This document shows, piece after piece, positions 16,552 through 24,100 of a stretch of DNA of 64,000 nt; positions within the stretch are counted from its first letter, which is position 1; every line of letters starts with the position of its first letter. The position numbers and the translations under genes are program-made. Location of the stretch: positions 26,233,936 to 26,297,935 of the forward strand of contig CAIIXF020000006.1 in the NCBI GenBank assembly GCA_903813345.2, written 5' to 3'. A model generated the notes under the pieces. It saw nothing but the letters and a program-made list of their open reading frames with translations, made no database searches and was not told the origin of the DNA. The DNA is from Owenia fusiformis (Eukaryota > Annelida > Polychaeta > Sabellida > Oweniidae).

Positions 16552-16660
16552 TTAAAGTCTGCTATCGAAGCCTATTTGTTTGCTGCAACTTGGGCATGTA
16601 TGAACCGCATCTTTCAAGTCATTGATGCACAGCGGGATGAAACACAAGCAGCAGACCCAT
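16552..16660 (-). CDS. LITAF-like alternative last exon (copy B)
   Basis: A minus-strand exon beginning after a CTGCCTATAG acceptor and ending at TAA (16,552-16,554). It encodes WVCCLCFIPLC, then LKDAVHTCPSC and a short basic tail ending RL. This is the second half of a LITAF domain: hydrophobic segment plus the HxCPxC zinc knuckle. The exon is 109 bp with one spare 5' base, so it joins only to an upstream exon ending in phase 2. That is exactly how the 21,985-21,802 exon ends. No first-half exon was seen between here and 18,361. It is either a fourth alternative 3' exon of the upstream locus or the relic of a lost tandem gene; the intact frame favours use. Confidence 0.8.
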
Positions 16661-17061
16661 CTATAGGCAGAAAAATGTATAATTTCAAAATTCAACAAAA
16701 TGCTATTGAGTGAGTTTTGTATAGAGAGGTATAGAAAGATATTCCAAGCAGGAAAATGACTCAAATGGTCCTATTGAGAAATGTGAATTATTGAAAATGG
16801 AGTGTAAAAGAGAGGTTAATGAAGCATCAAATTTAGGCAGGGAAAAGTGAAAACTCCAAAGCAGCATGCATAATATAAGTAAATCTTTCCCCCAAAACTA
16901 TTAAATGGGTAATTAAAAATACTTAATTTTGCTCAAGGGTGCTGTTATTTGAGAGGTTGGCCCTTTCACTGTACATTTTGGAAGGGTATAGGACATATTT
17001 CTGTTTATATTGTCCAGTAGTCACTATAGATAGATGCATGCCAGCTGAGTGCAATCCCCAT

Positions 17062-17095
17062 TTAAGGTAGGCTTATCAAAATGGACCTACCTTAA
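17062..17095. repeat. TTAA-bounded hairpin
   Basis: TTAAGGTAGG faces CCTACCTTAA around a 14-nt loop. The same termini recur at 17,544-17,624, and a TTAAGGTAAGCCA version is at 19,606-19,686, suggesting a small MITE family with TTAA ends. Confidence 0.65.
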
Positions 17096-17466
17096 ACGAC
17101 ATCAAAATTGTGCATTTGAGGGAATGGGGTCTTAAGAGAATGGCATTTCTAATTTATGTCTAATTATAACCATAAAGACCCCATTCCCTAATCAAGCATA
17201 CAGATTTAAGCATTCCTCTTAGAACAAGATGGACATAACCCAGCCTTAGACACAACCTCAAGAATATTATTAATTATAAGGATGCAATGTCCTTATGAAG
17301 CTGCGTTTTCATAGGGTTTAGAATTAGCAATACCCATACTGTATGCATCAAACAATTGTATATTTCTTTATTACATAAAAGAGGCACTTATTCATGTGTA
17401 CTCAACTTTCTCTTATTTGATTAGTGTTTAATGTACTAATTTAAGGCACTTCTCATTCTATTGCAT

Positions 17467-17531
17467 AGGTGTCCATAAAGTCTACACAAACTTTGTATTG
17501 TAATTTTCAAGAGACTTTATGGTCACCCTGT
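17467..17531. mobile_element. tiny inverted-repeat element
   Basis: GGTGTCCATAAAGTCT at the left is mirrored by AGACTTTATGGTCACC at the right, about 60 bp end to end and followed by CTGTA. It resembles the ends of larger TA-type elements and has no coding content. Confidence 0.6.
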
Positions 17532-17543
17532 ATATCTACTTGT

Positions 17544-19686: not shown

Positions 19687-19734
19687 TACAGATTTGTTGC
19701 ATGATTCAACCACCATCAATATATTATATATACA

Positions 19735-20250
19735 TAGGTGTAGCCAGTGGGGTACGATAAGCAATAAAAATAGAACCATTTGATATAGATTCGATAGAAG
19801 AGCTTAAAAATGCTTTTTATTTGAAGCTTCTTGCCTAATTTTGAAGGAAGTTACATCAATTTTTGTAAAATTCAAAACAAATCTTTTTTTGGCTTGCTTA
19901 TTTGCACCCCCCTTGAATGAAAACTGAAAAATAATTGGCAATCGCACCCCCTGACTGAAAGCCAGCTACACCCATGATATATGCAATGCAATACTGCATA
20001 TTGCAATTATTTACACTAAATGCTCATGGAATTTTTTGCATTGTACAGTATAAGCCATGTATTTGCACCTTGGAGCTGCAATAAATGAGGCTGAGATCTG
20101 CCATCTCAAACAGAAAACTAGTCTAGCTACAAGCCCCTGTGACCCCCCCCCCCCTGTGACCCCCTTTCTCTACTTGACTACACACCCTTCTCACATAGGT
20201 GTTTATGTAGTTAGAGGGGGGGCACAAGGGCTTGTAGCATGTAGCTAAAC
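19735..20250. repeat. two small inverted-repeat elements
   Basis: At about 19,735-19,978, GGTGTAGCCAG faces CAGCTACACC across ~240 bp. At about 20,122-20,245, GCTACAAGCCCCTGTG faces CACAAGGGCTTGTAGC around C-rich and G-rich tracts. Both are non-coding; open frames across them are incidental. Confidence 0.55.
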
Positions 20251-21149
20251 AAACAGAAAATAAAAATAACATGTTAGTGCCAGTATAAGAGACCAAGTTA
20301 CCCAGTTACAAGTTACAATCAAAACTATTAAGTTGGTAAAGTTAGATATGTTATCATCAACTCAAGAACAGGGTTAAACTTTGCTCTATTGGTTTAGGAG
20401 AAAAGTTGTGTTATGTTAGTACATGATATAATTATTCGTAAGCTTGAGCTCTCAACTAATGTTACCAGCTTAATAGGTGTGAATGATGCAAAGTGAAAGA
20501 ATGCAAACAACAAGGCAGTCATGAAAAATGTTTTCACATCCTAAAATACCTCAGCTCTCCTGAAAAAGTCTCCAAGACTTGTTTGTCCTGATGGGTCTTA
20601 AAGATTAATATTTAAAGATATATACATTTCAGTTCTTATAAATTGTTACTTTTCTTTTAAAGAGTGACTGTACATCATGACTACATTGTTATGAAACTAG
20701 ATTATAAGAAAGTCAAACATAAAAGGCCATGAAAAAAGTAATTTCATATTCAATCTTATCTAGTTCTGGTTTTCTTGAATTAACTTGTATGATTTCTAAG
20801 AATGTCACTACGAGGGGTCAGTACATATGTTCTTATCTGATATGACTGTCATTGATTTTCAAAACCACCCTAGCCCTGTTTCCTTATGATTCTAAATGTT
20901 TTTAACATGATTATCATGACATTTCATGTTGACATACACATTACATGATGTTCATAAGGGGCACCACAATACAGCTAATATCAGCCTTAAAATCATTTGC
21001 CGCAAAAATCAATGACTCACTTGTGGTTCCCTTAATGCACATGAAAAACAAGTCCAAAATCCATGGTTAGCCCTAAAAGTGTTAGTTAGAAGAAACAATA
21101 TACATTAACCTGGAACTTACTCTTCGAGGAGTGTTCAAAAAGTGACGAT

Positions 21150-21189
21150 CACAGACTTATAGGCGACGATATGTGCCTAGAAGTCTGTG
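21150..21189 (-). promoter_or_regulatory. hairpin spanning the stop codon of LITAF-like gene E
   Basis: CACAGACTTATAGGC at 21,150-21,164 pairs with GCCTAGAAGTCTGTG at 21,175-21,189 (14 of 15 positions) around a 10-nt loop. In the mRNA sense the stem covers the last nine codons, the stop and the first 3' UTR bases. A role in termination or mRNA stability is only a possibility; it may be chance. Confidence 0.5.
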
Positions 21190-24100
21190 ACAGTTAGGAC
21201 AGCCGTGGTCGGCATCCTGCAAGTCATCGATACAGAACGGAATCAAACAGCAGCCCATCCAACAGCTAAAATGGGAAATAAATTGATTATTAATACATTA
21301 AATAAATTGGAGGATTTCTTTAAGATATGCAGTATTCACCAAGGGGACTGTAAGAAAAATGGGTCAAAGTATCCAGGTTTCACGATTTTCAAATTTCCAA
21401 AAAAAGGTAAAATGAATTTTCAATTAAGTGCAGCACCTCGTCACTAAATTCTGTAACAATCGTAGAGGTTCAAAAAATAAATGGATGATTTTATGACAAG
21501 TGGAAATTTTGAGATTGACAGAAGGCACTATGAATTCTTAAATACAGGGTGCCAGGAAAAAGGAGGTCGAGCCAAAAACTGCAATCATGATTATTTTTGT
21601 AAACCCCTTTAACTTTTCACATATCAACCCTCACAATTGGCCCACCCTGTGTATCGGCCAACCAAATATTTAATAGATAACTAAATATAAATACAAAATG
21701 TCACCACCAGCCATTTGTTACAGACGCTGATGGCTAAACACTATTACAGACACCGAACACCACTTCTGGTGGTGACATAACAACAACACTCCTTCACTTA
21801 CCCAAATAAACAAAGAAGGCCTGCAGATAGCCAAGTGAGGCCTCCAGACTGGTATGTGACTGTAGTTGTTACTGTAGCATGACAATGTGGGCATTCCATC
21901 ATTTTAGGATGGGGGCCGAGTTGGGAAGACTGCACGATCACTGTCTGTTGTACGGGTTGGGCCATGACTGTCTGCTGTTGGTAACCTACAACAATAACAA
22001 ATAAAATTTCATGAGTTAAAGACTACTATGCAATATAATGTCTTCTAATTAATTAGTATGGGGTCAAAGTGGGTTTCAAGTTATTACAAATACTGATGCT
22101 GACCATTTACACCAAAAGCAAGGCATATAAAACAGCGGCTGTGAAAATATGTCACTTTTTCTCGTTGGTGACAAATATGATATAGAGAATACAATTATTT
22201 AGGCCAAAAATTCTTTCGAAATCATGCTATTTTTTCACCATTCTGAGCATTATTTAAAGTGGTTTCGGGCCAAATGTGAGCCCGACTGGAATTTGAAATG
22301 TGAACCCCCTTGGCAAAAGGTGACTACGGCCTGATATGTACTTGTATAAAATATAATAATCAAAATGATATGTATACACTGTACATACCTTGAGGGTATG
22401 AGCCCTGTGGGTATGATCCTTGTGGAGGATAGGCCCCCTGGGGTGGATACCCAGGAGCTCCCGCACCACCAGGGGCCTCATACTTTGGTGGGGGCTCCTG
22501 TGGGTATTCCTTGCCAGGCATTTGCTGTCCCGGTTGGGGGTAAGGTGTAGCATAGGGGGCACCACCAGCAGCTTGGGCACCTGGGGCCTGGAACAGATCA
22601 CAAAAATAAAGATGAAGTATGGTAAATTAATTGGCAATTAATGTTTACACTTTCAAAAATGAAGTAAGAAAATACGGGCATAGAATCATTCAGTTTCGAT
22701 CAGCACACAGATTTACAGACTACCATAGATCAAGAGGTAAAAAATTGCCTAAGACATTATTACAATTTGAGATATGAAATAGTCCTACATATACTCTTAT
22801 AGAAATCCTCAAATATATATACAGAAGACTCATCTATGCTGCATATTGTGTATTATAAGAAGTTTGAAACTTAAAAAAGAATGGTATGATTACATAACTA
22901 AACAACAAAATTTCAAGTTTAATACTAGGAGAATACTTATCCTTTTATTTAATATTTTGGTTGCTCATGAAATACATTTGATGTACGAGTACATGTACTT
23001 ACTATGATGTCATGTACATATGTGATTTACTTTCAAATATGTCTACTTTGAATTAATTATAGCTAGACACACATGAACATACCATTAGGGTGCTTATAAA
23101 AACCAATGATTTTTTCAATACAAGAAATAAACCAATTTTAAAAAGTTTTATGGTAAAACTTGTGGTGTTTTTAGAATTATGTGGCTTGCTCGATTGACTA
23201 ATATGGATTGACCGATTGATTGGCTTTCTGACTTTTTTCTTATATGCTGTCATATGATTCTTGAATAGCTTTTCAATATCATATTAATTGTTTTAGTTTT
23301 TTGAATTACTCTTTTGAATCAATCCCCTTAAACTGCATGTATTTTCACAACTATATCAGATTCTAGTGGCTTACAATGCCCCCAGCAATCAAGCATTAAC
23401 GTAATTGTTATGTATATTCTATGTAATTTATTACATAGCAATTACACTTTCAGAAATTACAATGTTGTGCAATAAGTAAGAAGAAATTACAGAACAATTT
23501 GAGATGGTTTCCAGATCTAAAAATCATATTTTGATCATCAATATTATAGTTTTAGTATCCACTGTAGGGATTTTAATTCAGTCAGGATATACTGAATATA
23601 TTCCTAAACTAATCTCAATACAGATGAGATATCCTGATCCGGTAATACCTCAACCTAAACGATATCTTAAACAGGATAGTCAACAAGTTCCAGGGGATAT
23701 TCAAACAAAAGTAATAAATTCAGATGAGTTAATATCAAATGATGAGCTAAGAGTTATCAAAAATGGAAAAGAACCAATGACAACAATCCAAAATAACATG
23801 AAACTGACAACCCTGAAACCATCCAGTACAAATGGAAGTCTAGAGACAAAAGCAGAAACAATACCATTTAAAGAAATACCAACACAATTGCCGCCAAGCA
23901 CCATGATACGTAACAATGAAATAACACAGGCTCGCAAGGTAGACTCAGACAAATATATTGTATTTTTGTGTGGTGAGGGCAAGTTATGTGGAGGATTAGG
24001 AGACAGGTTGAAAGGAATACAAAGTACATTTCTCCTTGCATTGGTGTTAAAAAGAAAATTCAGGATTATTTCTACAGTGCCATGTGACTTATATAATCAA

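Follow-up and report, generated by a model that had tools for sequence, protein, structure and literature searches.

Can a single LITAF gene encode several proteins by ending in one of several alternative last exons? This question is raised by a locus of the annelid Owenia fusiformis, which was analysed here within a window of 64 kb (contig CAIIXF020000006.1, positions 26,233,936 to 26,297,935; all coordinates below are those of the window). On the minus strand, the gene appears to comprise three constant coding exons (0, A, and B), followed by four terminal exons (E1 to E4) that lie in tandem behind the shared exons and share their phase, each having an acceptor (Table 1). We consider it probable that this is one LITAF gene whose four homologous terminal exons, arrayed in tandem, are alternatives to one another. 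This explanation fits best because the locus has one front with one donor, phase-compatible acceptors, intact and diverged endings, and no second copy of the first half of the domain. The original prediction, which was made from the DNA letters alone and had proposed alternative terminal exons, is supported by the same features, namely a single front and donor, four phase-compatible acceptors, and four second halves that are intact and diverged.

The division of the LITAF domain between exon B and the terminal exons was confirmed. Exon B, which had been predicted as a shared first-half exon ending in phase 2, is followed by a GTAAGT donor and leaves two codon bases at this donor. It encodes the CPHC knuckle and the first part of the hydrophobic stretch. 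The four predicted second-half exons were also recovered, each with its acceptor, one-base overhang, HxCPxC motif, and own stop. Each is preceded by AG, gives one base to the split codon, and encodes 35 or 36 residues before the stop. The HxCPxC motif is intact in all four (HGCPNC, HTCPDC, HDCPGC, and HTCPSC in E1 to E4, respectively). The four exons span 4.7 kb and are separated by gaps of 0.4–2.1 kb. Pyrimidines occupy 13, 14, 14, and 12 of the 17 positions before the acceptors of E1 to E4, compared with 11–12 for exons A and B and for the terminal exon of a separate LITAF gene in the window. By this count, the acceptors of E2 to E4 are not clearly weaker than that of E1. A 42-bp minisatellite (18596-18918; 7.7 copies) occupies most of the gap between E2 and E3. 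It starts within the last 16 nt of E2, indicating that the last residues and the stop of E2 belong to, or seeded, the 42-bp repeat.

Exon 0 was retrieved by a motif scan (PPxY or P[ST]AP) of the frames of the minus strand that lie upstream of 22600, which yielded two places, 26537 (in exon 0) and 26247. Its frame, composition, and donor suggest that it is likely the start exon. Neither exon 0 nor the separate LITAF gene had been named in the original prediction. When exons 0, A, and B are joined to E1, E2, E3, or E4, the products are open frames of 216, 217, 217, and 216 residues, respectively. The predicted N-terminus is proline-rich and carries two PPxY motifs, PPTY in the putative exon 0 and PPKY in exon A. 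The N-terminus had been described as PPxY-rich; PPxY is present, but with only two motifs "rich" is an overstatement.

Table 1. Exons of the LITAF array gene and related features in the 64-kb window.
Feature	Position	Strand	Details
Exon 0 (likely start exon)	26394..26552	-	159 nt; PPxY motif PPTY; phase 0 end; donor GTAAGT
Exon A (proline-rich)	22389..22587	-	199 nt; PPxY motif PPKY; phase 1 end; donor GTATGT
Exon B (LITAF domain first half)	21802..21985	-	184 nt; phase 2 end; donor GTAAGT
Terminal exon E1 (LITAF domain second half, own stop)	21157..21265	-	PF10601 38-70, 44.7 bits
Terminal exon E2 (LITAF domain second half, own stop)	18903..19014	-	PF10601 37-69, 39.4 bits
Terminal exon E3 (LITAF domain second half, own stop)	18361..18472	-	PF10601 39-69, 36.7 bits
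Terminal exon E4 (LITAF domain second half, own stop)	16552..16660	-	PF10601 40-68, 39.2 bits
AATAAA, putative poly(A) signal for the array	16295..16300	-	252 nt after E4 stop
Separate LITAF gene	10151..11944	-	Exons 11944-11677, 10863-10671, 10256-10151; phases 1 and 2; single terminal exon

The joined products, translated from an ATG inside exon A, match the LITAF profile PF10601 over nearly its whole length, with 95.9, 86.5, 85.1, and 89.6 bits for the products ending in E1 to E4 (gathering cut-off 23.8 bits), which places all of them in this family. Exon B alone matches profile positions 1-37 (44.1 bits), and the terminal exons alone each match roughly positions 37–70 (36.7–44.7 bits). Since each of E1 to E4 alone exceeds the cut-off of a Pfam profile that was built independently of these sequences, a chance resemblance is excluded. 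Two CxxC pairs flank the hydrophobic stretch, CPHC from exon B and CPNC, CPDC, CPGC, or CPSC from E1 to E4, respectively. Human LITAF has been modelled with zinc held by C96, C99, C148, and C151, which flank the hydrophobic anchor (PMC5142333). The array gene product is predicted to bind zinc and to attach to one membrane face. Judged by alignment, whichever terminal exon is chosen would contribute the second pair of cysteines and the latter part of the anchor, and exon B would supply the rest. Among solved structures, no LITAF relative was found by sequence, the only match being a SIR2 protein (E 0.69). Two scans of bacterial and archaeal genomes found no relative. Of two scans of viral contigs, one gave a single match, which covered 24 residues of the proline-rich part and was set aside, and the other gave none.

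The original prediction further stated that the gaps contain no other first-half exon, and this was upheld by the searches made. Six-frame searches with exon B and with a two-row profile built from the two first halves in the window returned no more than two exons above threshold, exon B itself and the corresponding exon of the separate LITAF gene. Six-frame searches with exons 0 and A found no further copies of either among the terminal exons. A scan of the minus-strand frames from 22100 to 12000 gave 22 CxxC places, several of them inside E1 to E4, and two of the 22 have a phase-2 donor that passes the pattern. One is exon B; the other, at 16486, has a poor donor (GTGTGT) and no LITAF context and lies beyond E4, leaving exon B as the only place with both a good phase-2 donor and LITAF context. 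A separate first-half exon for each copy, one of the findings that could have overturned the prediction, was thus looked for, and one first half was found for four second halves. Separate LITAF gene copies were rejected, since each second-half exon would need its own first half and only one was found.

The separate LITAF gene, which lies beyond E4 and served as a control, shows the same intra-domain split and the same phases as the array gene. Its first half and last exon match PF10601 with 30.2 and 46.1 bits, respectively. A profile of E1 to E4 was searched against all stop-to-stop segments of at least 12 residues in six frames of the whole 64 kb. It recovers those four exons, as its construction dictates, and the only further hit above threshold is the terminal exon of the separate gene (E 3.1e-14). 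Because the separate gene has the same split with one last exon, the split is ordinary here, and the array gene differs only by its extra last exons. The last exon of the separate gene fits the donor phase of exon B; a fifth ending produced by read-through would be possible but is unsupported. The N-terminal part of the separate gene contains a 27-bp tandem repeat (11710-11902) that encodes a PPPQQGGYA-like unit.

Pairs of terminal exons share 14–18 of 32 residues. In all six pairs, synonymous differences are saturated (0.71–0.97 per site) and nonsynonymous differences amount to 0.29–0.36 per site. The exon pairs beat 200 of 200 shuffles in six of six pairs. With shuffles that preserve base content only, the 150-nt upstream flanks are at background level (46–188 of 200 shuffles reach the score across the six pairs) and the 150-nt downstream flanks are at background or slightly above (5–130 of 200, with values of 5, 8, and 11 in three pairs). 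Word-7 blastn comparison of 400-nt flanks gave matches of only 12–16 nt between copies outside the exons, with the exception of E2 and E3, whose flanks overlap and contain the same 42-bp array. A codon model rejected neutrality for the exons taken together as a set (2 delta lnL 42.3). In neutral simulations, which included no indels, the frame and HxCPxC were kept in 0.08–0.20% of copies at 0.5 substitutions per site and in 2.3–3.7% at 0.25. Collectively, the saturated synonymous sites, the rejection of neutrality for the set, the losses in simulation, and the unlike flanks indicate that the array consists of old duplicates that were long kept as coding sequence. Within the array, the closest pairs are E3 and E4 (18 of 32 residues) and E2 and E3 (17 of 32). 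E1 shares 17 of 31 residues with the last exon of the separate gene and 14–16 of 32 with E2 to E4. These values hint that E1 is the original last exon from which E2 to E4 were derived; a firm tree would need more than 35 residues. The array is probably the product of an old duplication that involved the last exon alone.

In the proposed mechanism, the donor of exon B would be spliced to any one of the four acceptors, with the protein ending at the stop of the chosen exon. The four acceptors would compete for one donor, with E1 being the nearest, and the use of E2 to E4 would require skipping of E1 in some cells. The four proteins would share the PPxY-bearing N-terminus and the first cysteine pair, and their differences would lie in the latter part of the hydrophobic anchor, the residues around the second cysteine pair, and the C-tail. 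The endings may tune how or where the protein sits on membranes, with the shared front retaining its partners. The PPxY motifs of human LITAF bind ITCH/Nedd4 ligases (PMC5095921), so the shared front would preserve the connection to these ligases and the endings would vary the part that faces the membrane. It is conceivable, though we would put it forward only tentatively, that the four endings form an old, conserved, and regulated set in which the ligase-binding front stays the same and a choice among four second halves of one zinc-stabilised membrane anchor makes the membrane behaviour differ by tissue or immune state. Thirteen pairs of inverted repeats were identified in 15500-22600. The two longest or best-paired with short loops are local palindromes (17716-17798 and 20126-20238) in introns between terminal exons, and are perhaps small inverted-repeat transposons. 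A docking/selector layout was not seen among these 13 pairs, for which no formal test was made.

Several observations weigh against the array of alternative terminal exons. E1 has no AATAAA or ATTAAA within 600 nt of its stop, and the first AATAAA, at 19821, is 1.3 kb on. Between E2 and E3 neither hexamer occurs, and the variant TATAAA, 337 nt after the E2 stop, is the sole candidate there. With hexamers missing close behind E1 and E2, four independent poly(A) exons are unsupported. The acceptor of E3 ends in AAG, with a less usual base at -3. Per-branch codon tests (p 0.055–0.62) resolved selection on no individual exon branch, because the synonymous sites are saturated. At 0.1 substitutions per site, 21–24% of simulated copies were still intact, so a recent loss of use would be compatible with the data. 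The missing hexamers, however, do not weigh against a choice among four acceptors. The 3' ends may be shared between terminal exons: lacking a hexamer before E3, E2 messages may continue through E3 as untranslated sequence. For E3, an AATAAA overlaps the stop, with an ATTAAA 44 nt on and an AATAAA 250 nt on. AATAAA and ATTAAA are frequent by chance, with 29 occurrences in 22600-9500.

A rival explanation is that E2 to E4 are relics or little-used duplicates and that almost only the E1 product is made. E1 has the highest PF10601 score of the four and the acceptor nearest to the donor, and it is closer to the last exon of the control gene than to its sisters. Clear poly(A) hexamers are missing from E1 to E2 and from E2 to E3, and selection on individual branches is unsupported. 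Yet the frame, acceptor, and HxCPxC have been kept in E2 to E4 despite saturated synonymous change, where the simulation expects loss in an old relic. We consider this explanation unlikely. E2, E3, and/or E4 could also be reached through their own promoters and unrecognised upstream exons, or by trans-splicing to the shared front, as in Drosophila lola and mod(mdg4), whose variable 3' parts are trans-spliced (PMC11426971). Short unrelated exons could be contained in the 0.4–2.1 kb gaps. A zinc site, however, cannot form without the first pair of cysteines, and the searches recovered no further first-half exon from these gaps; cis-splicing across such short distances needs nothing extra. We regard this possibility as improbable. 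An assembly error in which the front exons of three further gene copies were lost or collapsed appears very improbable. Tandem repeats, such as the 42-bp array in the gap that separates E2 from E3, commonly cause misassembly, but the window contains no N, and the error would need to have removed front exons only, in three copies, while all four last exons were kept 0.4–2.1 kb apart.

Several other features were observed in the window. A long single open reading frame (ORF) of about 496 residues (23507-24997) lies on the plus strand within the intron that separates exon 0 from exon A. The sole Pfam match of this ORF is weak and below the cut-off (XG_FTase, E 0.058), and it has no match among solved structures; that it encodes a fucosyltransferase-like enzyme is a guess. 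At 25460-25516 on the plus strand, a tRNA match from Rfam is marginal (30.1 bits; cut-off 29) and was not called by ARAGORN; it is perhaps a tRNA-derived repeat. Large tandem arrays are located at 51706-53880 (a 33-bp unit in 66 copies) and 41318-44275 (476-bp units). An ORF at 58389-58982 on the minus strand matches Pfam DUF4532 (PF15046) with 82.5 bits (cut-off 27) and is part of a multi-exon animal gene.

Tandem-duplicated terminal exons are already known as a kind. No array of alternative LITAF last exons was reported in the titles and abstract openings that were retrieved by searches of open-licence literature, which is weak evidence of absence. The main text of a survey of tandem exon substitutions does not mention LITAF (PMC9741552). 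The nearest LITAF report found is from mussel, in which LITAF transcripts 4, 5, and 6 have a common intron/exon junction and the last 38 residues in one exon (PMC4101229). Partial genes were recovered in that study, and the available part of the report describes no tandem last-exon array behind one first half. In Mytilus edulis, 24 LITAF fragments were obtained, and the authors allow that some are splice variants (PMC3308963). If the endings of the array gene are used, the LITAF diversity of invertebrates, which has been counted as genes or transcript fragments, may partly represent splice endings of one gene.

Human LITAF and CDIP1 resemble the array gene product in their proline-rich N-terminus with PPxY and in the two zinc-binding cysteine pairs that flank a hydrophobic anchor, but they are two genes, and human LITAF has a PSAP motif (PMC5142333, PMC5095921). 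No PSAP motif was seen in the array gene product (exons 0, A, and B). The reported Charcot-Marie-Tooth type 1C mutations of human LITAF fall in the same domain (PMC5142333). If used, the four endings would represent a naturally occurring exchange among four versions of part of a single zinc domain, one that anchors the protein to the membrane and, in human LITAF, is the site of type 1C mutations.

The proteins of Drosophila lola and mod(mdg4) likewise have the same N-terminal part followed by one of many alternative C-terminal parts, which are often zinc-binding, but in these genes the exchange concerns whole domains that follow a BTB domain, and it proceeds by trans-splicing (PMC11426971). 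In the array gene, by comparison, a single small domain is divided, and there is no sign of trans-splicing. The layout resembles that of tandem-duplicated exon substitutions, of which 77 of 236 human events are C-terminal. At the 3' end, TPM1, Tm1, and lev-11 each carry three exons in tandem, and these homologous last exons behind shared exons provide alternative homologous C-termini (PMC9741552). The locus described here, where alternative use is predicted, differs in having four such exons, in belonging to a LITAF gene, and in the swapped piece, which would make up one half of the zinc site together with a portion of the membrane anchor. Exchanged regions tend to avoid small-ligand binding sites (PMC9741552), and a swap that supplies half of a zinc site would therefore be somewhat unusual among these systems.

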